Shown here piece after piece: positions 7,401-57,718 of a stretch of DNA of 64,000 nt. Under the pieces are notes generated by a model, which saw only the letters and a program-made list of their open reading frames with translations, searched no databases and was not told the origin of the DNA. Each line of letters opens with the position of its first letter. Position 1 is the first letter of the stretch. Source of the DNA: Hymenobacter ruricola. GTDB taxonomy: Bacteria; Bacteroidota; Bacteroidia; Cytophagales; Hymenobacteraceae. The stretch spans positions 124,001 through 188,000 of the forward strand of contig NZ_JADQDM010000004.1 in the NCBI RefSeq assembly GCF_015694525.1, written 5' to 3'. The position numbers and the translations under genes were made by a program.

Positions 7401-7590
7401 GCGCGGCGTACAGCTTGTCTTCCGCAGCTAGGAGCTTCTCGCGGGCCAGGAAGTACGCATTGTCGCGCGCGGCCACGTTGTTAAAGGCGTGCGCCACCAG
7501 GTTTTTGTCCGAAGCGCAGCCCGCTGCCCCCAGTCCCAGCAGGAAAAGGAAGAGCGCGGCCCAACGGTATGTCAGCAGATGTTGTGTCAA
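4498..7590 (-). CDS. PorW/SprE-like TPR lipoprotein of the type IX secretion system
   Basis: PorW/SprE lipoproteins are periplasmic parts of the T9SS and gliding machinery. From the TTG at 7590 the protein has 1030 residues. A hydrophobic segment ending LGAAGC gives a lipidated Cys25. The N-terminal region (DNAYFLAREKLLAAEDKL, a NYNQTLPLFP-like stretch, DDAYILVAWARFY) matches the SprE pattern. Long alpha-helical TPR-like repeats follow, then an Ala/Pro-rich linker (roughly residues 800-920) and a C-terminal domain ending near the VISLENLALLQASGDLAGY type sequence seen in this family. ATG codons at 7728 and 7713 are in frame, but they put 46 or 41 extra residues before the signal peptide, so the TTG is preferred. 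Family call is by remembered architecture. Confidence 0.8.
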   Translation of the reverse strand: MTQHLLTYRWAALFLFLLGLGAAGCASDKNLVAHAFNNVAARDNAYFLAREKLLAAEDKLYAARINDYNQTLPLFPTLDSTTVRANRADLNDIIKKASMPIQHRPGSDWTDDAYILVAWARFYQMQFNDAALTFKYVNSTSKDANAKHEALIGLMRTFVAQGEMESAKAVSDLLDKEVGLPKDARQLFLTRADYYIRTDEPAKAIPQLEKAIPLIEFKNERSRTRYILAQLYQDAGENKKAYEQLDLLLARNPPYELDFQAKLMLPQVSDLSPENRARLNKTFAGLLKDPKNKDYRDKIYYEMARLNYREQNYPEALKLVRQSIAATTTNRLQKSYTYLLAGRIYYENLQKYRLAAAYYDSTVQSLNKEAKTYAAIKERSDILRDFAKQWTIIETQDSLQALAQLPKEALDEKLNQYADAEIAFKKKEAARLAAQQKAQAKDAEFAARAAGSNPPSAFGSLPGGGAAPDPMAFDPTAVASGAKWYFDNPATLGTARADFIRKWNNRQLQDNWRTNRQISSSPNAANNGGAPLSVTGNSTTAVNGGQDSARTAAAVDPSAERNALVAKYRAALPLTPTQLQASDKQVEAAMYELGGIYKEQLKEREKGFETYEKQVARYVRGEHAPDAYYLLYLYYKDKPDAAKMAQYAAALQKEFPTSLYAKLIADPLYREHELALHNAVASRVDSAFTHYKNQEFKKASAVLARTEKQYPKSDLNDRVAYLKTLLVVRTQAPLTARSSVEKFYKDYPDSPLVPQAQALAESYKKQSAGQLAGALASTEKPVISLFRPGEVDNRMRIFYREDETPYKALNPVAPDAAPAPATAAPAPAPTSTAIAAPVAKTEALAPAGSAGPAPTKVTPAKDLKDQKKAPAPAPAPTSPAPAPATAASGAPAGTPSAATVAPPPVAPAVAYTTQLSGAHAVVLVFPKATPPAADLVTQLTAYNNRFFRANNLQMETPPPSADQSMVVIRTLPGAKVAQSYATKLRGPQSPLARLRGAGYQALVISLENLALLQASGDLAGYSAFYQRVYK

Positions 7591-7801
7591 AGCAGAAAGG
7601 AGTAAAGGCAACCCGTAGGCCCCGCAACGCCGGAGGCCACCCGAAATGTTCGTTCGGCCGCCCTCGCGCTGGCAAGCTAACGGCAGCAGACCGGTAAAAT
7701 TACGTTTTTTCATTCCAGCTCGCGTCATACCGTATATGGCCGGGGCGGCCTGCTGGAAATTTGCCCGTTACCTTGTCGTACCCATTGCCATTTGCCGCGC
7801 C

Positions 7802-8029
7802 ATGACCCCCGACCCGCCCAAGCCCGAAACCCCCGCCGACCAGGCCAACACCGTGGCCAAATACTCCGGCATTGCCTTCACCATGCTGGCCATCATTGGC
7901 GGCAGCGCCTGGCTGGGTAGCTGGCTCGACGGCCACTTCCACAACAAAACCCCCTACTACACCGTGGGCCTGATGCTGCTGGGCTTGTTCGCCGCCCTCT
8001 ACCACGTCATTCGCTCGCTGACGAAATAA
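7802..8029 (+). CDS. AtpZ/AtpI-family small membrane protein of the ATP synthase operon
   Basis: A 75-residue protein with a polar proline-rich N-terminus and two membrane segments (about residues 20-40 and 50-70): AKYSGIAFTMLAIIGGSAWLG, then a short loop DGHFHNKTPYY, then the second helix. AtpZ/AtpI proteins accompany F-type ATP synthase genes and are linked to Mg2+/Ca2+ transport or c-ring assembly. Which role applies here is not visible. The ATG at 7802 was chosen because the open frame upstream encodes unrelated basic sequence that overlaps the divergent promoter region. First gene of the atp cluster; only 6 bases separate it from the next gene. Confidence 0.8.
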   Translation: MTPDPPKPETPADQANTVAKYSGIAFTMLAIIGGSAWLGSWLDGHFHNKTPYYTVGLMLLGLFAALYHVIRSLTK

Positions 8030-8035
8030 CGCCCG

Positions 8036-8431
8036 ATGCCCCGCTTCCTGCTGCACTTAGCCCTGTTCACCCTGGCCCTGGCCGCCGTCCTTTACCTCCT
8101 CGGGAGCCAGCTTGGGCCGCACGTCATCCACCCGTATGCGGGTCGGGTGCTGCTGCTCATGGCGGTGCTCACGGCTGCTACTTACTACATCACGGCGCGC
8201 GTCACGGCCGCCAATAAGGACTATTTTATCGCCGGGTATTTTGGCGGGGTAGTGCTGCGTTTCCTGGGGTCCATTCTGGTGCTGGGCATCTACTTGTACC
8301 GCGCCGGCGGGGTGCGCGGCGAGGGCACCATGAGCCTGTTAATTACCTTCTTCGTTCTGTACTTTTTGTATGCCGGGTTTGAAATCTGGGCCATTCTTAG
8401 TAACTTGCGCCCGTTTTCAAAATCAGGGTAA
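8036..8431 (+). CDS. Small four-helix membrane protein between atpZ and atpB
   Basis: A 131-residue protein with four predicted membrane segments (about residues 5-25, 37-55, 65-85 and 98-120) and short charged loops (TAANKDYF, RAGGVRGEG). I do not recognise a motif. Its position, six bases after the AtpZ-like gene and before atpB, is where an AtpI-like assembly helper sits in many operons, so a role in ATP synthase assembly is a reasonable guess from context. The sequence itself does not show it. Confidence 0.75.
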   Translation: MPRFLLHLALFTLALAAVLYLLGSQLGPHVIHPYAGRVLLLMAVLTAATYYITARVTAANKDYFIAGYFGGVVLRFLGSILVLGIYLYRAGGVRGEGTMSLLITFFVLYFLYAGFEIWAILSNLRPFSKSG

Positions 8432-8478
8432 TCGGCCCGCTGGCTCCTTTCGCCGCCGCCGTCCCTAAGTCAGCCTTA

Positions 8479-9552
8479 ATGAAGCATTTACTGCTCGCCC
8501 TCTGTTTTCTCTTCACGCTGCCTTCATTTGCAGTTCAGCCCGAAACCGGTGCTGCTGAAGCCGCCGAGACCGAAAATTTCGACCCCGGCAAAGTAATCAT
8601 GGAGCACGTGGCCGACGAGCACGAATGGCACTTCGCCACGTTGGGCAACGAGCACACCGGCACCCACGTCACCCTGCCGCTGCCCATCATCGCCTACCAG
8701 CCCAGCAAGGGCGTGTCGGTGTTCTCCTCGAGCCAGTTTCATCACTCGGCCAACGGCACCTACAACGGCCTCAAGATTGAAGAAGGCCACCTCGTGGCTG
8801 AAGACGGCAGCAAGGTCTACGACTTCTCCATCACCAAAAACGTGGCCTCGCTCATCCTGAGCTGCCTCATCCTCATTCTGGTGTTCCGCGCCGTAGCCAG
8901 CGGCTACCGCAAGCGCCACGGCAGTGCCCCCAAAGGCATTCAGTCGTTCCTGGAGCCCGTCGTGATGTTCATCCGCGACGAAGTGGCCAAGAAGAGCATC
9001 GGCCCGAAGTACGAGCGTTACATGCCGTACCTGCTCACCATTTTCTTCTTTATCTGGTTCAACAACCTGCTGGGCCTCACGCCCGGCGCGGCCAATCTGA
9101 GCGGCAACATTACCGTGACGTTCATGCTGGCCGTGGCCACGCTGCTCATCACGCTGTTCAGTTCCAACAAGTACTATTGGTCGCACATCTTCAAGCCCCC
9201 GGGAGTACCGGCCTGGCTGCTGCCCATCATCGTGCCCGTTGAAATCGTCGGCATTTTCATCAAGCCGATTTCGCTGATGGTTCGACTCTTCGCCAACATC
9301 ACGGCCGGTCACATCATCATCCTGAGTTTTATCAGCCTGATTTTCCTCTTCAAGTCGGTGGCTGTGAGCCCGCTGTCGCTCGCCTTCGGCTTGTTCATCA
9401 GCATGCTTGAGCTGCTGGTGGCGCTGTTGCAGGCCTACATCTTCACGCTGCTGTCGGCCATGTACATCGGCGGCGCGGTGGAAGACCACCACGATGCCGA
9501 CTACCAGATGGGCTACGACGACGGTTCGGAAACGACCCACGCCACCCACTAA
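8479..9552 (+). CDS. atpB: F0F1 ATP synthase subunit a
   Basis: Subunit a forms the proton half-channels beside the c-ring. The protein has 357 residues, longer than the 271 of E. coli. It begins with a signal-peptide-like segment (MKHLLLALCFLFTLPSFAV) and an extra ~100-residue periplasmic region before the first core helix, as is common in Bacteroidota. The essential arginine is in LMVRLFANITAGH (Arg269), and later helices contain ISMLELLVALLQAYIFTLL. The C-terminus is His/Asp-rich. It is followed by 92 bases with a pyrimidine-rich run, then atpE. Confidence 0.96.
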   Translation: MKHLLLALCFLFTLPSFAVQPETGAAEAAETENFDPGKVIMEHVADEHEWHFATLGNEHTGTHVTLPLPIIAYQPSKGVSVFSSSQFHHSANGTYNGLKIEEGHLVAEDGSKVYDFSITKNVASLILSCLILILVFRAVASGYRKRHGSAPKGIQSFLEPVVMFIRDEVAKKSIGPKYERYMPYLLTIFFFIWFNNLLGLTPGAANLSGNITVTFMLAVATLLITLFSSNKYYWSHIFKPPGVPAWLLPIIVPVEIVGIFIKPISLMVRLFANITAGHIIILSFISLIFLFKSVAVSPLSLAFGLFISMLELLVALLQAYIFTLLSAMYIGGAVEDHHDADYQMGYDDGSETTHATH

Positions 9553-9644
9553 TTCCCGTTTTTCCTGCGAACCCGCGGCGCTCCCCCCCCCAGTCGTGGT
9601 CTAGCTGATTTTCAATTTTTTTCTTTTTTCTTTTTCCAAGTTCT

Positions 9645-9917
9645 ATGCTTCTCTCTTTGTTCTTGCAGGCTGTGGCCGCAGTAGCCGGCAACGGTAACAA
9701 CCTCGCTGTAATGGGTGCCTGTATCGGTGCTGGTCTGGTAGCCCTCGGCGCTGGTGTTGGTATCGGCCGCATCGGCGGCTCGGCCATGGACGCCATCGGC
9801 CGTCAGCCCGACGCTTCGGGTAAAATCCAGACGGTGATGCTGATTGCCGCTGCTCTTATCGAAGGTCTGGCCCTGTTCGCAGTGGTAGTCTGCCTGCTGG
9901 TGAGCTTCAAACTGTAG
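9645..9917 (+). CDS. atpE: F0F1 ATP synthase subunit c
   Basis: A 90-residue two-helix protein that oligomerises into the rotor ring. The first helix has the Gly-rich packing motif GAGLVALGAGVGIGRIG, the loop is RQPDASGK, and the second helix carries the ion-binding carboxylate in ALIEGLALF (Glu73). Gly, not Ser or Thr, follows the Glu, which argues for protons rather than sodium as the coupling ion. That is an inference from known c-ring signatures. The N-terminal extension MLLSLFLQAVAAVAGNGNN may include a short signal sequence. Confidence 0.97.
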   Translation: MLLSLFLQAVAAVAGNGNNLAVMGACIGAGLVALGAGVGIGRIGGSAMDAIGRQPDASGKIQTVMLIAAALIEGLALFAVVVCLLVSFKL

Positions 9918-9998
9918 AAGTAGCCGCTACAAGTTCGGCAGCCCGCTGGCGCGTCCGCCCCTCGCGGCGCGGCGCGGGCTGCTTGACTTTTGAGCCAC

Positions 9999-10077
9999 TG
10001 GCTAATAGCCGTTAGCTGATAGTTTGTTCAGTTTGGTTAAAAAAGCTAACGGCTAACAGCTATTAGCTAACAGCTTA
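9999..10077. repeat. Heptanucleotide-type inverted repeat in the atpE-atpF gap
   Basis: The words GCTAATAGCCGTTAGCT (10001-10017) and the AGCTAACGGCT...ATTAGC run (10044 onward) are complementary, with one extra 7-base unit (AACAGCT) in the right arm. The right arm itself reads as 7-base steps (GGCTAAC, AGCTATT, AGCTAAC, AGCTTAC). It ends 12 bases before atpF. Confidence 0.65.
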
Positions 10078-10089
10078 CATAACGATACT

Positions 10090-10584
10090 ATGGACTTAAT
10101 CACCCCCCAATTAGGGCTGCTGTTCTGGCAGACGGTCCTGTTCTTACTGCTTCTTTTCATCCTGACCAAGTTCGCCTGGAAGCCCATCATGGCTTCGCTG
10201 CGCGAGCGGGAAGACAGCATCGAAAGCGCCCTGCGCATGGCCGACCAGGCCAAAATTGAGATGCAGCAGCTGAAAGCCGGCAACGAGAAGTTGCTCGCCG
10301 ACGCCCGCCAGGAGCGCGACCGCATGATGCAGGAAGCCACCATCATGGCCAACCAGCATCGCGAGACCGAAAAGGCCCGCGCCACGGAAGAAGCCAACCG
10401 CATCATCACCCAAGCCCGCGAAGCCATCCAGCAGGAGAAAAACGCCGCGCTGGCCGAGGTGAAAAACACCGCCGCCCAACTGTCGGTCGACATCGCCGAG
10501 CGCATTCTGCGCCGCGAGCTGGCCGAGCCCGCTGCCCAAACGCAGCTGGTGGATTCGTATTTGAAAGACGTTAAACTGAACTAG
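10090..10584 (+). CDS. atpF: F0F1 ATP synthase subunit b
   Basis: A 164-residue peripheral-stalk protein that ties the membrane sector to the F1 head. There is one N-terminal membrane helix (about residues 8-27, LLFWQTVLFLLLLFILTKF), the typical KFAWKPIMASLRERED junction, then a long charged coiled coil with many Glu, Lys and Arg residues up to about residue 140. The C-terminal part (LSVDIAERILRREL) resembles the delta-binding region. Length is usual. Stands between hairpin-containing gaps before atpF and after it. Confidence 0.96.
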   Translation: MDLITPQLGLLFWQTVLFLLLLFILTKFAWKPIMASLREREDSIESALRMADQAKIEMQQLKAGNEKLLADARQERDRMMQEATIMANQHRETEKARATEEANRIITQAREAIQQEKNAALAEVKNTAAQLSVDIAERILRRELAEPAAQTQLVDSYLKDVKLN

Positions 10585-10598
10585 TTGCTAGCTTTTCG

Positions 10599-10671
10599 TT
10601 GTCAGTTGTTAGGCTGTGTGCAGCCCTCGTTAACAAGCCTGGCAACTGACAATCAATCAACTGACAACTAA
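10599..10671. repeat. Inverted repeat of TTGTCAGTTG words in the atpF-atpH gap
   Basis: TTGTCAGTTGTTAGGCT (10599-10615) pairs with AGCCTGGCAACTGACAA (10636-10652) with two mismatches. A further copy of the word (CAACTGACAACTAA, 10658-10671) follows, spaced roughly in 7-base steps. It ends nine bases before atpH. Confidence 0.65.
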
Positions 10672-10680
10672 TACTAACCA

Positions 10681-11241
10681 ATGGCTGACCAACGAGTAGC
10701 GGCCCGCTACGCCAAGTCGCTCCTCGACTTGGGCAAGGAGATGGGCACGCTGGATAGCGTGAAAGAGGACATGGACCTGCTGAGCAAGACCATGTCCGAA
10801 AGCCGCGAATTGCGGCTGTTGCTGCGCAACCCGATTGTGAAGCACGACAAGAAGCTGGCCATCCTGAACGCCATCTTCAAAGGCAAGGTGTCGGACATGA
10901 CCATGCGTTTCTTCACCATCCTCACCGAGAAAAACCGGGAGGCGGCGCTGGAAAGCATGGGCACCGAATTCCAGGTGCAGTACAACGCCATGCAGGGCAT
11001 CCAGATGGCGGAAGTGACTTCGGCCACGCCGCTCACGCCGGCTTCGCGCGCGGAGATGGAAAAGCTGGTGACCCAACAAACCGGCCTCACCGAAGTGAAG
11101 CTGACCGAGAAGGTGGACCCCAGCCTGATTGGCGGGTTTATTCTGCGTGTCGGCGACAATCAGATTGACGATTCCGTGCGCACCAGCCTCCGCAAGATGC
11201 GCATCTCTTTGCAAGAAAATTCTTACCAACAACAACTGTAG
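10681..11241 (+). CDS. atpH: F0F1 ATP synthase subunit delta
   Basis: A 186-residue stalk subunit linking the b dimer to the top of F1. The N-terminal helical bundle starts with the family-typical ADQRVAARYAKSLLDLGKEMG. The C-terminal part has LTEKVDPSLIGGFILRVGDNQIDDSVRTSL, here noted only as VDPSLIGGFILRVGD and IDDSVR, which is the hallmark of the family. Length is normal. The stop codon TAG (11239-11241) is the start of a GTAGGGTATAGGG repeat word. Confidence 0.95.
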   Translation: MADQRVAARYAKSLLDLGKEMGTLDSVKEDMDLLSKTMSESRELRLLLRNPIVKHDKKLAILNAIFKGKVSDMTMRFFTILTEKNREAALESMGTEFQVQYNAMQGIQMAEVTSATPLTPASRAEMEKLVTQQTGLTEVKLTEKVDPSLIGGFILRVGDNQIDDSVRTSLRKMRISLQENSYQQQL

Positions 11242-11349
11242 GGTATAGGGCAGAAGGGATAGGGGATAAGCAACCGGTTGCGGCACTAACGTGCTGATTT
11301 GCTGGTTTTCTCCAAGTCCCCGCACCTTATCCCTTGTCCCCTATACCTT
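11238..11349. repeat. Inverted repeat of AGGGGATA-type words in the atpH-atpA gap
   Basis: The left arm (11238-11270) repeats words like AGGGTAT, AGGGAT, AGGGGAT. The right arm (11325-11349) has the complementary words CTTATCC, CTTGTCC, CCTATAC in 7-base steps. The arms can pair imperfectly across a 54-base middle. The left arm includes the atpH stop codon. Confidence 0.65.
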
Positions 11350-11361
11350 ATTCCCAAAACC

Positions 11362-12942
11362 ATGGCAGAAGTACGTCCGGACGAAGTATCCGCAATCCTG
11401 CGGCAGCAGTTGTCCAATTTCAAGTCCGAAGCCGAGCTGGAAGAAGTCGGCACCGTGTTGCAAATCGGCGACGGCGTGGCCCGCATCTACGGACTGAGCA
11501 AGGCCCAGGCGGGCGAATTGATTGAGTTCGAGAACGGCCTGCAAGGTCTCGTGCTCAACCTCGAAGAAGACAACGTGGGTGCTGTACTGCTCGGCGACTA
11601 CTCGGAAATCCGGGAAGGCGCCACAGTGAAACGCACCAACAAAATTGCCTCCATCAAGGTGGGCGAAGGCATCGTGGGCCGCGTGGTGAACACCCTCGGG
11701 CAGCCCATCGACGGCCGTGGGCCTATCACCGGCGAGCTGTACGAGATGCCTTTGGAGCGCAAGGCTCCCGGCGTAATCTACCGTCAGCCGGTGACCGAGC
11801 CGATGCAAACGGGCATCAAGTCGATTGACGCCATGATTCCGATTGGCCGTGGTCAGCGCGAGCTGATTATCGGTGACCGTCAGACTGGTAAGTCGGCCGT
11901 GGCCATCGATACCATCATCAACCAGCGCGAGTTTTACGAAGCCGGCCAGCCGGTGTTCTGCATCTACGTGGCCATCGGCCAGAAGGCTTCGACCATCGCC
12001 CAGGTGGTGCAGTCGCTGACCAAAGGCGGTGCCATGGACTACACCGTGGTGGTAGCTGCTCCGGCCGCCGACCCCGCGCCGCTGCAGTTCTACGCGCCCT
12101 TCACCGGTGCTGCTATCGGTGAGTTCTTTCGCGACACGGGCCGTCCGGCTCTAGTGGTGTATGATGACTTGTCGAAGCAGGCTGTGGCTTACCGCGAGGT
12201 GTCGCTGCTGCTCCGTCGTCCTCCCGGACGCGAGGCTTATCCCGGCGACGTATTCTACCTGCACAGCCGCTTGCTCGAGCGCGCCGCTAAAATCAACTCG
12301 TCGGACGAAATCGCCCGCGACATGAACGACCTGCCCGACAGCATCAAGCACTTGGTGAAAGGCGGCGGCTCGCTGACGGCTTTGCCCCTGATTGAGACGC
12401 AGGCCGGTGACGTATCGGCGTACATCCCGACCAACGTGATTTCTATCACCGACGGCCAGATTTTCCTTGAGACGAACTTGTTCAACTCGGGGGTGCGTCC
12501 GGCCATCAACGTGGGTATTTCGGTGTCGCGCGTGGGTGGTAACGCTCAGATTAAGTCGATGAAGAAGGTATCGGGTACCTTGAAGCTTGACCAGGCCCAG
12601 TTCCGCGAGCTGGAAGCCTTCGCCAAGTTCGGCTCCGACCTCGATGCCTCGACCAAGCTCACCATTGAGCGCGGCCGTCGCAACCTCGAAATCCTGAAGC
12701 AGCCCCAGTTTTCGCCCGTGAAGGTGGAAGACCAAGTGGCCATCATCTACGCCGCCACCAACGGCCTCCTCGATAGTGTGCCGGTTAACCGCGTGCGGGA
12801 GTTCGAGAAGGAGTTCGGCCAGGTGATGAACTCGCGCTACCCCGACGTGCTGAAGGCCCTGAAGGCTGGCAAGCTGGAGGACGCAGGCACCAAGGCCATC
12901 CGCGAGGTAGCCAAGGACGTGTCGGCGAGCTACGCGTCGTAG
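11362..12942 (+). CDS. atpA: F0F1 ATP synthase subunit alpha
   Basis: The non-catalytic nucleotide-binding subunit of the F1 hexamer, 526 residues. The N-terminus [17 protein letters not shown] is typical and fixes the ATG at 11362; the open frame upstream translates the repeat arm. The beta-barrel domain ([14 protein letters not shown]) is followed by the P-loop GDRQTGKS (residues 171-178), the ATP synthase signature [14 protein letters not shown] and a C-terminal helical domain ending KDVSASYAS. All core motifs are intact. The catalytic beta subunit is not encoded nearby, in keeping with the split atp operons of Bacteroidota. Confidence 0.97.
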
Positions 12943-12957
12943 TAAAAATTAAGTACA

Positions 12958-13048
12958 GAACGTCATGCAGAGCGCAGCGAAGCATCTCGCATGAGTTAGT
13001 AACTCAACGATGCGAGCAAGATGCTTCGCTGCGCTCTGCATGACGTTC
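12958..13048. repeat. REP-like palindrome in the atpA-atpG gap
   Basis: Perfect 30-bp arms at 12958-12987 and 13019-13048, outer word AACGTCATGCAGAGCGCAGC. The middle has a smaller nested stem (CTCGCAT/ATGCGAG). Three other copies of the same design lie at 21148, 52500 and 57595. Confidence 0.85.
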
Positions 13049-13081
13049 AAACGCTTAGTTTATAATAATTAACAAGGATAA

Positions 13082-13966
13082 ATGGCAAGCTTAAAAGAAG
13101 TCCGCAACCGCATTCAGTCGGTGACGAGCACGCAGCAGATTACCAAAGCCATGAAAATGGTGGCGGCGGCCAAGCTGCGTCGTGCCCAGGACAACATCAT
13201 CCGGATGCGGCCTTACGCCCAGCGCCTGAACACCATTCTGGCGAACCTGACGCGCACGGCCGACGCCGACATCGTGAGCGACTACGGCGTGGCCCGCGAG
13301 GTGCGCCGCGTGCTGGTCATTGCCGTGACTTCGGACCGTGGCCTGGCCGGCGCGTTCAACTCGAACGTGTTCAAGGGCGTGAACGCGGCCATTGCCGAGC
13401 GTTATGCTAACCTGCCGGCCGCGAACATTTCGTTCATGGCCATCGGCAAGAAGGCGCACGACTACTATGGTCGCCGGGGCTCTTTGGTGGGCAACTACAC
13501 CCACGTCTTCGCCAAGCTGTCGTTTGAGACGGTGCGCGAGGCCGCCGAAGTGGCCATGGACGGTTTCCGCAACGGCACCTACGACGAGGTGGTGATGGTG
13601 TACAACGAATTCCGCAACGTGGCCACGCAGATTATCCGCACCGAGCAGCTGCTGCCGCTGGTGCCGGCCGCCCAGCCCGCTTCGGCCACGCCGACGGCTA
13701 ATGTGGACTACCTGTTCGAGCCGAACAAGGAGGAAATCGTGCAGACGCTGATTCCGCAGTCCATCAAAATTCAACTCTACAAGGCGGTGTTAGAAAGCAA
13801 CGCTTCGGAGCACGGCGCCCGCATGACGGCCATGGACAAAGCCACCGACAACGCCGGTGAGCTGCTCAAAGCCCTCAAGCTGACCTACAACCGGACGCGT
13901 CAGGCGGCCATCACGACCGAGATTCTTGAAATCGTGGGCGGTGCTGAGGCCTTGGCGGCGGGGTAA
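13082..13966 (+). CDS. atpG: F0F1 ATP synthase subunit gamma
   Basis: The central rotor shaft, 294 residues. The N-terminal helix MASLKEVRNRIQSVTSTQQI...KAMKMVAAAKLRRAQ and the C-terminal helix (MTAMDKATDNAGELLKALKL, then YNRTRQAAITTEILEIVGGAEAL) form the family's antiparallel coiled coil. The middle has the Rossmann-like segment VLVIAVTSDRGLAGAFN. Complete and of normal length. Last gene of the cluster, closed by a terminator 24 bases after the stop. Confidence 0.97.
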   Translation: MASLKEVRNRIQSVTSTQQITKAMKMVAAAKLRRAQDNIIRMRPYAQRLNTILANLTRTADADIVSDYGVAREVRRVLVIAVTSDRGLAGAFNSNVFKGVNAAIAERYANLPAANISFMAIGKKAHDYYGRRGSLVGNYTHVFAKLSFETVREAAEVAMDGFRNGTYDEVVMVYNEFRNVATQIIRTEQLLPLVPAAQPASATPTANVDYLFEPNKEEIVQTLIPQSIKIQLYKAVLESNASEHGARMTAMDKATDNAGELLKALKLTYNRTRQAAITTEILEIVGGAEALAAG

Positions 13967-13990
13967 GGCATCGATTCGGTAAAATTAAAA

Positions 13991-14023
13991 AAAGCCTGTC
14001 TTCCTTGAAGACGGGCTTTTTTG
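13991..14023 (+). terminator. Terminator after atpG
   Basis: Stem AAAGCCTGTCTT (13991-14002) pairs with AAGACGGGCTTT (14008-14019) and is followed by a T-run. It ends the atp cluster. The rest of the gap to 14203 shows no other feature. Confidence 0.9.
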
Positions 14024-14203
14024 TTGAGTTATAGGAAAGGCCGTTAGGCAGCAGATTGCCAGGGGGAAAAGAAATGCAGCAAGCCGAAATGAGGGTGTTC
14101 AACTTATGCTCGCCATACCATATTACAGAGCGCTTGCGTTAGCAGTGCCCTGCGGCCGATGGCCTAAGGAATTATTTTTTATTCTTGTTCCTCCTATTAC
14201 GCT

Positions 14204-14569
14204 ATGCTTACGCTTTCCTCCCCGGAGCCCTTTACCGGGCGACGTCCACTGGCCTTGCTGACATTGCTGGTGTTGTTGGCGGCACCGAAGGTTCGGGCCC
14301 AGGCGTCGGAGCCCCTGGCCGACCTGCACCTATACCCCAACCCTGCCCACATCCGGGCTACCGTGGAAGTGCCCGCGGTGCCCGGCGCCACGCAGGCCAC
14401 GGTCACACTCCTCAATGCGCAGGGCACGGCGGTATTTGAGCAACCCGTGAGCCTGCCGGAAACCGGCGGCACGGCCGAAATACCCCTGCTGGGCCGGGCC
14501 CCCGGCCTCTACCGGGTGCAGGTGCAGGTGGGGGAGGTGCGCACGGCCAGGACTTTGAAAGTGGAATAA
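14204..14569 (+). CDS. Minimal T9SS sorting-domain protein
   Basis: A 121-residue protein made of a signal peptide (hydrophobic stretch about residues 15-32, cleaved near VRAQA) and then only a type A T9SS C-terminal domain: LHLYPNPA, ATVEVP, VTLLNAQGTAVFEQPVSL, GLYRVQVQVG, and the terminal TLKVE. Such domains direct secreted cargo through the T9SS and are normally the last ~80 residues of much larger proteins. Here there is no cargo. It might be a remnant of a longer gene, a fusion partner, or a small surface protein of its own. No promoter is clear (TATTCTTG upstream is one base off the -7 consensus). Upstream of the M36 protease gene. Confidence 0.75.
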   Translation: MLTLSSPEPFTGRRPLALLTLLVLLAAPKVRAQASEPLADLHLYPNPAHIRATVEVPAVPGATQATVTLLNAQGTAVFEQPVSLPETGGTAEIPLLGRAPGLYRVQVQVGEVRTARTLKVE

Positions 14570-21127: not shown

Positions 21128-21147
21128 AAGTAGAGCATTTGAAAGAA

Positions 21148-21247
21148 CGTCAGGCGGAGCGCAGCGAAGCATCTTTACCGCGAGAGTAAATCTGGTCGAT
21201 GGGATTGCATTGCGCGGTAAAGATGCTTCGCTGCGCTCTGCATGACG
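21148..21247. repeat. REP-like palindrome between the HAD and alkaline phosphatase genes
   Basis: 35-bp arms at 21148-21182 and 21213-21247 with two mismatches, core GAGCGCAGCGAAGCATCTTT. It lies between two divergent genes, just upstream of the TATCTTTG element of the phosphatase gene. Confidence 0.85.
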
Positions 21248-21264
21248 AGGCCGGGGCCCGAGGG

Positions 21265-21272
21265 TATCTTTG
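21265..21272 (+). promoter_or_regulatory. Putative -7 element (TATCTTTG) of the alkaline phosphatase gene
   Basis: Exact match to TAnnTTTG, about 28 bases before the TTG at 21300. It overlaps the alternative TTG start at 21270, which makes that start unlikely. No clear -33 TTG at the usual distance. Confidence 0.5.
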
Positions 21273-21299
21273 CGGCTGCTTAGCCTTACCCGCTTTCCA

Positions 21300-23015
21300 T
21301 TGAAAAAGATACTACCGTTCACCTTGGCCGCCGTGCTGGCCGCTGCCCCGGCCTTCGCCCAGAAGGCCGGCAAGCCCGTGCCCCGCCCCAAGCTGGTGGT
21401 CGGCATTGTGGTCGACCAGATGCGCTACGACTACATCTACCGCTACTGGAACAAATACCCGGCCGGCGGCTTCCGGCGGCTGCTGGGCCAGGGATTCAGC
21501 TACGAAAGCTGCCACTACAACTACGTGCCCACCTACACCGGCCCCGGCCACGCCAGCGTGTACACGGGCACCACGCCGGCCGTGCACGGCATCATCGGCA
21601 ACAACTGGTGGGTGCGCGAGGAAGGCCGCGAAACCTACGTGACCGAGGACAAGACCGTGCAGGCCGTGGGCGGCACCGAAGCCGCCGGCCAGATGTCGCC
21701 GCGCCACCTGCTGGCCACCACCATCACCGACGAGCTGCGGCTGGCCACGAACTTTCAGGCCAAAACCATCGGCCTCAGCATGAAGGACCGGGGCAGCATC
21801 CTGCCGGCCGGGCACTCGGCCACGGCCGCCTACTGGTACGACGGCACCAACGGCGCCTTCATCAGCAGCACGTTCTATCAGCCGGCTTTGCCCGATTGGG
21901 TCACCAAATTTAACGCCGCCGGCCACGCCGCCGAGTACCTGGCCAAGCCCTGGAATACGCTGCTGCCCCTCGCCGACTACACCGAAAGCTCGCCTGACGA
22001 CGTGCCCTGGGAAGGCGCTTACAAAGGCGAAAGCAAGCCCGTGTTTCCGCACGACCTGCCCACGCTGGCGGCCGGCGCGCCCGCCTCAGTGCAGCCCGCC
22101 CTGAAGAACTCGGGCGAAACCAGGAACCCGCAGGCGCCCACCCAGAACCTCGACCTCATCCGCAGCACGCCCTTCGGCAACTCGCTCACCACCGACTTCG
22201 CTCTTGAAGCCCTGCGCCAGGAGCAGATGGGCCAGCGCGGCGTGACCGACTTCCTGGCCATCAGCTTCAGCAGCACCGACTACGTGGGCCACCAGTTCGG
22301 CCCCAATTCCATCGAAGCCGAAGACACCTACCTGCGCCTCGACCGCGAGCTGGCCCGCCTCCTCGACGCGCTGGACCAGCAGGTGGGCAAGGGCCAGGCC
22401 CTCGTCTTCCTGACCGCCGACCACGCCGCGGCCCACGCCGTGGGCTTCAACCAGGCCCACCGGCTGCCCGGCGGCGGCGTGGGCCCCAGCGTGATGCGCG
22501 ACTCGGTGCAGCGCGCCCTCACGCGCCAGTACGGCCCCGGCCAATGGGTGCTCAGCTACGAAAACCAGCAGGTCTACCTCAACCGCCAGCTGCTGCGCAA
22601 GAAGAACATCGACCTGGCCAAGGCCCAGCAGGACGTGGCCGCCGCGCTGCTCACGCTGCCCGGCGTCACGCAGGCCCTCACGGCGCTGGATTTGCAGCGC
22701 GCCCATTGGAGCGAGGGCCTGGGCATGTACCAGGAAAACGGCTTTTTCGCCCCGCGCTCCGGCGACGTGCTCACCGTGCTGGCCCCCGGCTGGCTCGAAG
22801 CGTATGCCTACCCGGTGGTGAAGGGCACCACCCACGGCTCGAGCGGCGCCTACGACACGCACGTGCCGCTGCTGTTCTGGGGCTGGGGCGTGAAGCACGG
22901 CGAGTCGGCCGCCGCGGTGCGCATCGTGGACATCGCGCCCACCATCGCGCGCTTCCTCCACATCCAGGAACCTAGCGGTTGTTCGGGGGTTCCTTTGGTG
23001 GAGGTGCTGCGTTGA
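21300..23015 (+). CDS. PafA-like alkaline phosphatase (alkaline phosphatase superfamily)
   Basis: A secreted phosphomonoesterase of the PafA/NPP-like group. Residues 1-20 form a signal peptide (ILPFTLAAVLAAAPAFA). The mature enzyme has VVGIVVDQMRYDYIYRYW with a metal-binding Asp, the nucleophile threonine in VPTYTGPGHASVYTG (Thr80), the ligand motif SFSSTDYVGHQFGPNS, TADHAAAHAVG, and a late STHGS-like HGSSGAYDTHVPLLFWG. Length 571 is normal. The start is TTG, chosen because the next in-frame TTG upstream (21270) overlaps the likely promoter. Expected to release phosphate from organic phosphoesters in the periplasm or outside. Confidence 0.9.
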   Translation: MKKILPFTLAAVLAAAPAFAQKAGKPVPRPKLVVGIVVDQMRYDYIYRYWNKYPAGGFRRLLGQGFSYESCHYNYVPTYTGPGHASVYTGTTPAVHGIIGNNWWVREEGRETYVTEDKTVQAVGGTEAAGQMSPRHLLATTITDELRLATNFQAKTIGLSMKDRGSILPAGHSATAAYWYDGTNGAFISSTFYQPALPDWVTKFNAAGHAAEYLAKPWNTLLPLADYTESSPDDVPWEGAYKGESKPVFPHDLPTLAAGAPASVQPALKNSGETRNPQAPTQNLDLIRSTPFGNSLTTDFALEALRQEQMGQRGVTDFLAISFSSTDYVGHQFGPNSIEAEDTYLRLDRELARLLDALDQQVGKGQALVFLTADHAAAHAVGFNQAHRLPGGGVGPSVMRDSVQRALTRQYGPGQWVLSYENQQVYLNRQLLRKKNIDLAKAQQDVAAALLTLPGVTQALTALDLQRAHWSEGLGMYQENGFFAPRSGDVLTVLAPGWLEAYAYPVVKGTTHGSSGAYDTHVPLLFWGWGVKHGESAAAVRIVDIAPTIARFLHIQEPSGCSGVPLVEVLR

Positions 23016-34544: not shown

Positions 34545-37500
34545 CTATTCGCGCACGATGCGGCGCAGGTCGGTGCCGCCTTCGGTGGTGGCGCGCAGCA
34601 GGTACACGCCCGAGGCCGAACCCGACAGGTCCAGCTGGGCTTGCGTCTGACCGGCGGCCACTTTCTGCGTCAGCACCACACGGCCCAGCGCGTCGATAAC
34701 CGTCAGCTGCACGGCTTTGGCGTAGCCGGTGAGCTGCAGGGTCACCTTGCCATCGGCGGTGGGGTTCGGGAACAAGGTCAGTGACGAGCCAGCCAGCGGC
34801 TGGGCCGTGGCCGTCACCGGGAGCGCCGTCGATGGCGCCGACTGGCAACCCGTGGTCGAGTTGATGAACCGCACCGTGTAGGCACCCGGCGCCGTGGCGC
34901 CGTCGGCCGTGTACGTCTGGCCCGTGGCCCCAGCAATAGCCGTGGTGGTCGTGCCCGTGGTCAGGTACCACTGGTAGGTGGTGCCAGCCGGCGCTGCGCT
35001 GCTGGTGAAGAGCACTGTGCTACGCGTGGGGTAGGTGTAGGTATACGTCGGCGTAGCGGGCAGCGCGTTGATGGTCACCGTCGCGGTGCTCGTGGCCGCC
35101 GCGCAGCCGCTGGCGGCGGCTACCGTGTTGGTCACGGTGTACGTGCCAGCCGTCGAGGTAGCCGGGTTCACCGCGCCCGTCGTGGCGTTGATGGTCAGGC
35201 CCGCGGTCGAGCTGAACGTACCCGCCGTGGCACCCGTGCCCAGCGTGGGCGTGAGCAGCGTGGCCGAGCCGGCGCAAGCATTGGCGTTGGCGTAGCTGAA
35301 CGTGGCCACCGGGGCCGCCGTGATGGTCACCTGAGCCGTGGCCGTAGCCGCCGCGCAGCCGCCGCTGGCCGCGATGGTGTTGGTCACAGTGTACGTGCCG
35401 GGCGTCGACGAGCTGAGTGTAATCACGCCGGTGGTGGCGTTGATGGTCAGGCCCGTGGTCGAACTAAACACGCCGCCGCTGGCACCCGCGCCGAAGCTGG
35501 GGGCCGGGTTGGTGGTGCCGCTCACGCAGTAGGTGGGGCTGGTGCCGTAGCTGAACGTGGCCAACGGCGCCGTGGTGATGGTCACCGACTGGGTGCTGCT
35601 GCTGCCGCAGGCGCCGGCCACCGTGTAGGTCACGGTGTAGGTGCCGGGCGTCGAAGCGCTCAGGTTGATGGCGCCGGTGCTGGCGTTCAGGCTCAGGCCG
35701 GTGGTCGAGCTGAATACGCCGCCGGTGGTGCCCGTCACGGTGGCCGTGGGGTTGGTGCCGCTCACGCAGAACGTGCCGCCCGCATAGGCGAACGTGGCCG
35801 ACGTGGCCGGTGTGATGGTGACCGTGCTGGTGGCCGTGGCCGCGGCGCAAGCGCCCGAAGCCGCGATGGTGTTCGTCACGGTGTAGGTGCCGGCCGTCGA
35901 GTTAGCCAGGCTGATGATACCGCTAAACGGGTCAATGCTCAGGCCCGTGGTCGAGCTGAACGTGCCGGCGGTAGCGCCCGTGCCCAGGGTGGGCGTCACG
36001 GTGCTGGTGCTGCCAGCGCAATAGGTCGTGGCCGTGGGGTAGCTGAACGTGGCTACCGGCGCGGGGCTGATGCCCAGGGCCAGCGTGGCCGTGGCGCCTG
36101 CGCAGGGGCCCGAAGCCGCCGACGTCAGCGTGATGGTCACCGAGCCGGCGGCCACGTCAGCGGCCGAAGGCGTGTAGGTGGCCCCCAGCGTGGTCGCGTT
36201 GGGCGAGAACGTGCCCGTGCCGCTGGTGGTGTAGGTGCCGGTGGTGGCCGAGCCGCCCACCGTGCCGGCCAGCGTGTAGGCCGAGGTGCCGCAGGTGCTG
36301 GCCGTAGCGGCCGGGAAGCTGGCCGTGGCCGGCTGCGTCACGTTCACCTGGATGGCCGTGCGGGCAGCGCTGCCCACGCACTCGTTGCTAAACTGCAGGT
36401 TGTAGAAGAAGTAGTAAGAGGTGCTCGTGCTGGGCGGGGTCAGGGTGCCATTCACCGTCGTTACCGAGCCGCTGGGCGTCGAGTAGTTGGCGGCGCTGGC
36501 CGTGCCCCGTATCAGCGCGATGCCGGTGTAGGCCTTCACCAGCAGGCGGTAGTTGGTGCCGTTCGGAATGTTGGCGAAGTTCAGCGGCACCACCACCGGG
36601 GTGCTCACCCCCGTGCCGGTTACGTTCACGTTGCCCGTTTCCTGCGGTACGCCGCCTATCGTTACCTGCGTCCCGGTATTGTCGTAGAGCGCAATGTTTA
36701 TCGTGCCCGTGCCCACCGGATAGATGGTGGTGGAAACCAGCGTAGCGGAACTGGCCGCCACCGTGAACAATACCCCCGACTGGGTGAAGATGGTACTGCC
36801 GTCGGTCGCGTTGGGCGCCGGCATGCCGGTGGCCTCGGTTCCTCCCGTGTAGGCCTCGGCATAGTAGGTCGTGCTGGCCGTGAGCGCCGGCGTGGTGTAG
36901 CTGCCGGCCGTGGGGGTGGCCAGGGCCGTGCCGCCGGTGGCGGCGCTGAAGAAGCGCACCGAAGCCCCGGCCGAAGCCGCAGCCGTGAGCGTGGCCGTGT
37001 TGCCCGCGCAAATGCTAACCGGCGTGTTGGTCGAAGCCACCGTCGGGTTATTCACCGTGATGGTGCTCACGTTGGAAGTGGCCGTGCCCGTGTTGCAGCG
37101 CACCTGGGCGCGGAAATACGTGGTGCTGGTGAGCACCGGCGTGGTGTACGCGGCGCTGGTGGCGCCGGCAATGTCCGTGAACGTCACGTTGTCCGGGCTG
37201 CGCTGGTACTGGATGCTGCCGTTGGCGGCTCCCGTCAGGGTGAGCGTGGCCGTGCCGCTCACGCAGATGTTCGAAGCAGCCGGAGCCAGCGTGCCGGCCA
37301 CCGGAGCCAGCACCGTGCGGGTGGGCGCCGGCGTCAGCACGTCGTTGGCGGTGTTGCCGTCGCCGGCCACCGTGGCCGTGATGGCAAACGAGTAGGTACC
37401 CACGGTGCTCATGTTGAGCGTGCCGGGCAGCACCACGGTCTGGGTAGCGCCAGCGGCCAGCGTGCCGGTGTTCACCGTGGCCGTGAGGGGAGCCGTGGTG

Positions 37501-52460: not shown

Positions 52461-52499
52461 GAAAAGAAGAGCGCAGGAAAGTATAACACGCAATAAACA

Positions 52500-52604
52500 G
52501 AACGTCATGTCGAGCTGGTCGAGACATCTCGCCTGGGGCAGTAATCCATTCAAGTGAGTTACTGCCCCCACGCGAGATGTCTCGACCAGCTCGACATGAC
52601 GTTC
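52500..52604. repeat. REP-like palindrome between the two M28 peptidase genes
   Basis: Arms of 33 bp at 52500-52532 and 52572-52604 are perfect reverse complements (GAACGTCATGTCGAGCTGG at the outside), and inner GGGGCAGTAA/TTACTGCCCC words extend the pairing. Confidence 0.85.
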
Positions 52605-52629
52605 GTGGCTTTTGGCTACTTATTTAGCT

Positions 52630-57582: not shown

Positions 57583-57594
57583 CAACGGTGTTGT

Positions 57595-57684
57595 CTGTCA
57601 TCCTGAGCGCAGCGAAGGACCTTCTCAGGTCAGAACGAATTGCTTCAGGCGTGACAAGGTCCTTCGCTCCGCTCAGGATGACAG
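57595..57684. repeat. REP-like palindrome between the TolC and MFP genes
   Basis: Arms at 57595-57623 and 57656-57684 (29 bp each, one mismatch), outer word CTGTCATCCTGAGCGCAGCG. The core AGCGCAGCGAAG.A is shared with the copies at 12958 and 21148. Confidence 0.85.
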
Positions 57685-57718
57685 CCGATTCTCCGATAAT
57701 CTAAAATACCCGTTTCCC

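Follow-up and report, generated by a model that had tools for sequence, protein, structure and literature searches.

The gap between the ATP synthase genes atpF and atpH holds a hairpin in nearly all Hymenobacter genomes compared here, and the short words of which its arms are built have been replaced wholesale and often, both arms together. We read this gap as a standing "hairpin slot" carrying an mRNA barrier whose spelling hardly matters, an interpretation to which we give slightly less than an even chance. Heptamer repeats as such (STRR, TTGTCAG, TAACTGA) were known already; the kept atpF-atpH hairpin with swapped words is apparently unreported, and a search of titles and abstracts, thin for subscription journals, returned no report of a kept hairpin slot with swapped words. 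The slot amounts to 119 natural replicates in a core operon, with the sequence exchanged while the stem and its place stay the same. These replicates separate "fold matters" from "sequence matters", making the function of seven-letter repeats testable with existing alleles.

Word hairpins in the atp operon of the window

The window, the whole 64,000-nucleotide stretch of DNA analysed, contains an atp operon with hairpins in the gaps between its genes (Table 1).

Table 1. Genes and hairpins of the atp operon, in positions of the window
Feature	Position	Strand	Description
atpE (subunit c)	9645..9917	+	ORF; operon order atpB-E-F-H-A-G
GC-rich hairpin, atpE-atpF gap	9931..9989, arms 9931-9946/9974-9989	+	inverted repeat I12; distinct from word hairpin 1
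Word hairpin 1, atpE-atpF gap	9999..10069, arms 9999-10028/10040-10069	+	word AGCTAAC, period 7
atpF (subunit b)	10090..10584	+	ORF; final ~12 nt and stop codon move with the hairpin in interspecies swaps
Word hairpin 2, atpF-atpH gap	10582..10670, core arms 10599-10615/10636-10652	+	word TTGTCAG/CAACTGA
atpH (subunit delta)	10681..11241	+	ORF
Word hairpin 3, atpH-atpA gap	11242..11347, arms 11242-11264/11325-11347	+	word AGGGGAT/AAGGGAT
atpA (subunit alpha)	11362..12942	+	ORF
Palindromic element of another kind, atpA-atpG gap	12958..13048	+	GTCATGCAGAGCGCAGCGAAGCATCTC arms, 33 nt, 97%
atpG (subunit gamma)	13082..13966	+	ORF

Inverted repeats of distinct ~7-base words in the atpE-atpF, atpF-atpH and atpH-atpA gaps had been claimed by a first-pass annotation, and arms, folds and shuffles all bore this out. 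The period-7 two-arm scores of these gaps (1.70, 0.82 and 1.41, respectively) were each matched by 0 of 300 dinucleotide shuffles, and RNA folds of the gap with a few flanking bases reached −37.5, −37.9 and −56.8 kcal/mol (z of −5.1, −5.0 and −6.2) with no shuffle equally good, which excluded chance as the origin of the repeats and stems. The 7-bp tandem-repeat search proposed in the annotation yielded TRF arrays in two gaps: at atpE-atpF (period 7, 5.1 copies), where the 3′ arm of word hairpin 1 consists of the units AGCTAAC-GGCTAAC-AGCTATT-AGCTAAC-AGCTTAC, and at atpH-atpA, where period 7 was found in both AGGGGAT-like arms. TRF returned no array in the window's atpF-atpH gap, the weakest of the three, in which the units read TTGTCAG-TTGTTAG and the period-7 score scarcely exceeded the period-4 score (0.80). 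The additional claim that the arms differ by whole 7-base units held only roughly, the units being degenerate and the 3′ arm at atpF-atpH containing an 8-base irregularity. The extended fold of this hairpin has its 5′ limit inside the atpF stop codon. No Rfam match at the gathering threshold was obtained across positions 7500-14500.

The atpA-atpG gap gave a period-7 score of 0.11, equalled in 63 of 300 shuffles, and its palindrome, scoring within the shuffle range, is thus of a different kind. Palindromes of this GTCATG type were also observed in the window at 21128-21332, 52461-52629 and 57583-57718, with arms that covary like families of one element; left arms of the forms GTCATGC.., GTCATGT.., GTCATCC.. 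and GTCATTG.. occurred 18, 9, 8 and 2 times in 464 kb of the window's own genome. A separate block of ~250-bp tandem repeats, perhaps coding, lies at 35057-35900.

The atpF-atpH gap across Hymenobacter genomes

An atpH match was found in 119 of the 120 genomes of the genus (G094 had two, of which the better was taken), and all 119 loci yielded three gaps; the genus group, which is outside the cyanobacteria, includes Hymenobacter persicinus (one stretch, L223, is 100% identical to G052 over 1501 bases). The atpF-atpH gap measured at least 40 nt in 119 of 119 genomes (5–95% range 82–121 nt), the shortest being that of L027, with 40 nt and one arm. When folded with 30 nt on each side, 118 of the 119 formed a stem across the gap, with a median of 30 pairs, and the MFE z was below −2 in 114 (median −5.4) and −2 or more in 5. 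The best ungapped hairpin exceeded the 95% shuffle level of 8 in 110 gaps and lay at or below it in nine (L027, L061, L082, L105, L107, L108, L120, L123 and L131); the weak stems, nine by ungapped score and five by MFE z, are possibly decayed ones. Self-match was 0.51 at lag 7 and 0.49 at lag 14 compared to 0.20–0.32 at other lags, and the best period was 7 in 99 gaps and 8 in 9; another 11 gaps had a best period of 5 or 6, eight of these holding the GTCATG palindrome. A hairpin score of at least 12 was attained in 86 of 119 atpF-atpH gaps (72%) versus 169 of 364 co-directional gaps of like length in five genomes (46%).

The word hairpins that the window carries at atpE-atpF and atpH-atpA are of the same kind as the slot hairpin but optional. 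The atpH-atpA gap measured at least 40 nt in 29 of the 119 genomes and 3–11 nt in the other 90. The atpH stop codon was TAA in 89 of the 90 genomes lacking a hairpin-sized gap and TAG in 22, TGA in 2 and TAA in 5 of the 29 with a long one, an association reflecting few independent events since the tree requires just 4 switches between a long and a short gap; the sisters L003 and L004 differ in both hairpin and stop codon. At atpE-atpF, relatives also hold GC-rich hairpins like that of the window. In G008 and G091, the two relatives compared with the window gap by gap, the GC-rich hairpin was present there and a word hairpin was not, and L006 and L007 carry another word than the window's.

The first-pass annotation had suggested that hairpins between the atp genes could set mRNA decay or translation. 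Such an effect is conceivable, but the optional atpH-atpA hairpin and the missing atpE-atpF word hairpin in G008 and G091 fit poorly with a role in all three gaps. The annotation had also named, as evidence against itself, the lack of the window's words in the same gaps of relatives. This lack was found literally, but the hairpin was retained at atpF-atpH, which strengthens the case there.

Where the Fo genes end and the F1 genes begin, a stem of ~30 pairs without a U-tract (0 of 108) would be well placed as a barrier acting at the RNA level, and the finding that any word, and even another palindrome, fits the slot suggests that the fold outweighs the sequence. The sequence of such a barrier would be nearly irrelevant and any stem would suffice; it would most likely halt 3′-to-5′ exonucleases between the Fo (atpB-E-F) and F1 (atpH-A-G) genes and might stop trailing ribosomes there too.

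Stable stems between genes could also be intrinsic terminators or attenuators within the operon, which we consider highly improbable. A run of at least 5 T within 8 nt past the 3′ arm was seen in 0 of the 108 slot hairpins with at least 6 nt there, where the sequence was A/C-rich, indicating that the slot hairpins are not terminators. A consensus scan placed no terminator at the three word hairpins of the window, the single hit in these gaps being the GC-rich hairpin (9969-9982), and in the wider survey described below at least 5 T followed the 3′ arm in 1 of 42 co-directional word hairpins (again those with at least 6 nt there).

Turnover of words and limits of the swapped unit

Gaps were classified by three-unit matches in both arms, with a score of at least 28 required against a shuffled maximum of 27/42; 108 were assigned by score and 8 by the GTCATG motif, giving 116 of 119, with 3 weak. 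The classes, drawn up after inspection of the gaps, with the GTCATG palindrome treated as one class and the one-arm L027 and odd L082 left in their assigned classes, comprised AGTTGTC (28 gaps), AGCTGTT (15), AGCTGCA (6), GAGTATT/GGTAGTA (21), AGGAGCT/AGAAGCT (19), the octamer GGGTCTTG (9), TTAATGG (7), the GTCATG palindrome (8) and three singletons. On a 119-tip FastTree tree of atpF+atpH+atpA, with the three weak gaps placed in their best class and error gauged by FastTree supports, word class changed at least 53 times (Fitch), versus a mean of 78 and a minimum of 70 for shuffled labels, or 39 times with similar classes merged. Partners of different class made up 18 of 36 cherries (12 after merging), as in the swapped sisters L031/L053, L124/L127, L125/L126 and L088/L094. 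Two-sided changes were detected in 2 of 29 pairs among 11 class D gaps; thus, selection on pairing within a class is barely visible.

The swapped unit extends from the last ~15 nt of atpF, including the stop codon, to about the next start. Comparison of 18 swapped with 18 same-word sister pairs, hand-picked from the tree with several rows used twice, revealed a mismatch of 0.222 versus 0.000 at the stop codon and 0.199 versus 0.028 in the 12 nt before it, with nearly equal values upstream beyond −15 (0.033 in both sets, then 0.067 versus 0.061). Inside atpH, the first 15 nt varied little in either set; positions 15–30 showed 0.019 versus 0.004, and the sets were alike thereafter. With a stop codon and synonymous codons inside its limits, the unit seems to be replaced by a process of unusually local reach.

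Stop identity followed word class. Among 116 gaps, the atpF stop was TAG in class A (27/28), D (21/21) and F (8/9) and TAA in class C (6/6), M (8/8), E (16/19), B (12/15) and G (5/7). The gaps' own atpF tails added −3.16 kcal/mol to the fold compared to −2.17 for tails taken from other classes (p=5e-6). Only classes A, D and F showed this effect clearly, and it was absent or reversed in B, E and M, so that the linkage of the stop codon can be put down to tail pairing only in the former three. A pure frame-stop function, for which periods of 7 and 8 would be apt as neither is a multiple of 3, was rejected: stops in all three frames occurred in 78% of slot gaps versus 52% of shuffles, and the enrichment on both strands looks like word composition.

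These features bear on translational coupling, in which terminating ribosomes must open the stem, the atpF stop codon lying at its base and the atpH start just past its 3′ arm. The mean pairing probabilities of the stop codon (0.61) and of the atpH −20..−8 region (0.71), the class-bound stop codons and the stronger pairing of own tails are all consistent with coupling, and coupling or transcript stability is named for cyanobacterial STRR hairpins (PMC2670836). However, the tail effect fails in the three classes mentioned, the 8 nt directly ahead of atpH are largely unpaired (pairing 0.32) and its start codon is paired only half the time, and a 30-pair stem exceeds, in our judgement, what coupling needs, making this explanation improbable.

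Most same-class cassette pairs diverged along with silent sites. Class D cassettes of L077/L083/L087 and of L111/L119 were 0.83–0.88 alike at a four-fold divergence of 0.53–0.61, with similarities of 0.84–0.88 at 0.53–0.58. At divergences of at least 0.45, 14 of 304 same-class atpF-atpH pairs were at least 0.8 alike, representing few independent events; 13 involve L111 or L119 and one is L093/L122. The corresponding figure for atpE-atpF was 2 of 3140 pairs, L100 with L101 and L107 (identity 0.81 at four-fold divergence 0.45–0.47), suggesting that exchange may extend beyond the atpF-atpH slot.

The best matches of a class A cassette were the same slot in other species (85–91%), with dispersed copies at no more than 83% among the matches listed with at least 3/4 of the length aligned; for a class F cassette the values were 86–87% and, among the matches listed at the same length, no more than 79%. 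Short partial matches elsewhere exceeded these slot-to-slot identities. Within-genome ectopic copying was rejected as the sole source, both cassettes being best matched by slots of other species. Same-class pairs displayed no excess identity from −33 to −123 upstream, a small excess of 0.005 at −243..−123 and one of ~0.01 throughout downstream, by permutations that ignore the tree. The lack of shared flanks from −33 to −123, together with the lack of excess mismatch past −15 upstream in swapped pairs, argues against long-tract homologous recombination, which may nevertheless have acted downstream. The likeness of cassettes in diverged lineages and the matches between species suggest horizontal exchange of slot alleles, the simplest reading, with end points near the slot. 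At least some swaps would have occurred in this way, and the heptad repeats themselves would arise by slippage inside the arms.

A more far-reaching proposal is that the hairpin is selected while its spelling is free, the spacers being exchangeable cassettes with their own stop and last codons, swapped precisely from stop to start through cross-species allele exchange or through a dedicated copying process that writes heptads into both arms simultaneously. We regard this as unlikely. If true, the widespread and unexplained prokaryotic heptamer repeats would be the visible trace of word-agnostic spacer hairpins.

Word hairpins elsewhere and known heptamer repeats

A survey of 2.06 Mb, made up of 464 kb from the window's own genome and 400 kb from each of G008, G091, G012 and G074, called word hairpins at period 7 or 8 with a two-arm score of at least 1.0. 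They occupied 58 of 915 co-directional, 5 of 191 convergent and 0 of 228 divergent gaps (co-directional versus divergent, p=2e-6), or 34 of 565, 4 of 119 and 0 of 141 with one genome per sister pair counted (p=0.0007); these counts are approximate because the limit leaves out the atpF-atpH gap of the window itself (0.82) and admits a few gaps without words by eye (such as G008 gap 91). Co-directional word hairpins started a median of 3 nt past the stop codon and ended 9.5 nt ahead of the start. In the first three genomes period 7 was found in 25 cases, period 8 in 10, period 5 in 13 (many of them GTCATG) and other periods in 0–4, compared to 0 in shuffles. A pooled period search over all hairpins gave no period-7 peak (0.238), terminators and GTCATG palindromes dominating the pool, so that the two-arm word score was needed.

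The sister species G008/G091 and G012/G074 share ~96% protein identity. Of their 470 orthologous gaps, 37 held a word hairpin in at least one partner, and at an identity cut-off of 0.6, 18 of these were the same and 19 diverged. A common flank lifted gap 85/202 over the cut-off (0.63, rated the same), and gap 200/84 was rated diverged with its word shared. Unrelated words were recognised by eye in six gaps (45/243, 85/202 and 127/159 of G008/G091; 78/208, 136/152 and 242/41 of G012/G074), and some diverged gaps had merely lost an arm (176/114, 249/54). Diverged partners held a hairpin in 12 of 19 cases compared to a baseline of 118 of 224, which was not significant (Fisher p=0.26), and retention of the slot is therefore supported at atpF-atpH only. 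At G008 gap 151/G091 gap 137 and G012 gap 107/G074 gap 179 an inner loop or terminator was kept, with word arms in one sister and degraded or absent arms in the other; a simple cassette swap is insufficient there. Other repeats observed were a palindrome family, AGTAGCGCGAACTTTGTAGTTCGCG and close variants, in short gaps of the window's own genome (C25a 94667, C25b 96983, C1 68349 and C1 76231, positions in joined pieces), and hairpins of longer words of ~9 (CGGATTGAA) and 10 (GAGGTTTCGC) bases (own genome C25a 26858; G008 277860; G091 114674).

The main rival to a barrier at the slot holds that tolerated selfish or neutral palindromic repeats, STRR- or REP-like, turn over in permissive promoter-free gaps and owe their heptads to slippage, which we take to be a serious though doubtful possibility. 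The word families are indeed dispersed (the class A cassette was matched in 101 of 120 genomes and the class F cassette in 62 of 120), the empty divergent gaps are as expected from promoter damage, and genome-wide retention was not significant. Eight of the 119 atpF-atpH slots are filled by palindromes of the GTCATG kind, the hairpin at atpH-atpA is optional (29/119), and the ungapped score is weak for nine of the slot stems. However, at least 39–53 class changes should leave empty slots, and only that of L027 is reduced (40 nt) and none is absent; in contrast, the atpH-atpA gap is down to 3–11 nt in 90 of the same genomes, and hairpins reach a score of 12 in 46% of like gaps versus 72% at the slot.

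The STRR sequences of filamentous cyanobacteria, to which the first-pass annotation had likened the window's repeats, are reportedly treated by Vioque (1997) in connection with RNase P RNA. The likeness proved good and extends to the word TTGTCAG. The Hymenobacter repeats are tandem heptanucleotides, dispersed, multicopy and intergenic, with a shared word (TTGTCAG tested), and STRR are likewise described as tandem intergenic multicopy heptanucleotides, with hairpins inside operons and the word TTGTCAG (PMC2670836, PMC2408588). In Nostoc PCC 7120, ttgtcagttgtcagttgtca was counted 44 times, csR1.1 being an instance of the shared word (PMC2408588), and for STRR hairpins between hupS and hupL the function was left unexplained, with stability or coupling mentioned (PMC2670836). 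Exact TTGTCAG x3 occurred, among the matches listed (80 of 118), in cyanobacteria, Bacteroidota, Acidobacteria, Planctomycetes, purple sulfur bacteria and others, including Nostoc, Anabaena, Tolypothrix and two Hymenobacter records. In this set of 118 loci, 30 had an inverted partner no more than 150 bp away that matched at 15/21 or better, versus 0 in shuffled flanks (40 versus 3 at 14 or more). The Hymenobacter slot differs from STRR in its hairpin, which stayed while the words changed in a comparison of 119 genomes, in its 8-base words and in the upstream stop codon within the swapped unit; a putative common descent of the two sets of words cannot be proved from words so short.

Each family of REP elements has one conserved palindromic core, and REP/BIME are mobilised by the RAYT / Y1 transposase. 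The Hymenobacter slot, with unrelated words at one position, has no such shared core. REP/BIME are described as dispersed intergenic palindromes with roles in termination or mRNA stability among those proposed (PMC3733652). The direct repeats of TAACTGA in Beggiatoaceae, Cyanobacteria and five Bacteroidetes (MacGregor 2015, PMC4679880) are also heptamer arrays, many just 5′ of start codons, patchy over distant phyla and with horizontal transfer suspected. In contrast to the slot they consist of one word in direct repeats, inverted in a single case in the main genome studied; the Bacteroidetes named in the relevant passages exclude Hymenobacter, and those passages describe no orthologous word swapping (PMC4679880). 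The GGGAATC repeats found in Xanthomonas and Nostoc (Rehm 2015, PMC4692102) share with the slot a heptameric unit, intergenic location in the same gene pairs of related species, variable length and sequence, and inversion in some cases, but are a single G-rich word studied as a quadruplex former, and the passages concerned mention no swap between unrelated words. Heptamer repeats have been called abundant and unexplained (PMC6344855), and heptanucleotide repeats are described in Geobacter (PMC2700814). Protective operon hairpins of E. coli, linked to programmed mRNA decay (Dar and Sorek 2018, PMC5927463), are stable, lack a U-tract and set the stoichiometry of operon segments; the predicted folds at the slot are likewise stable intergenic stems without a U-tract. 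Whereas the E. coli hairpins are generally located in coding regions and conserved among relatives (PMC5927463), the Hymenobacter hairpin lies in a gap, is built of words and has its sequence replaced.

Beyond the genus, 30 loci were surveyed at the family level. In genus g65 of the same family, slot word hairpins were present in 8 of 8 loci, with words resembling classes A, B, D and F by eye; genera g64 and g62 had mostly word-like atpF-atpH gaps, and genera g63 and g66 of the same family had gaps of 50–74 nt without words by eye (13 loci). At the order level the atpF-atpH gap was shorter than 50 nt in 19 of 23 loci. In L146, an order-level locus from another family, the atpH-atpA gap was long and held a hairpin that looks word-like, GGTTATTAGTTTTAG... 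/ ...AACTAAAAAACTATAACC.
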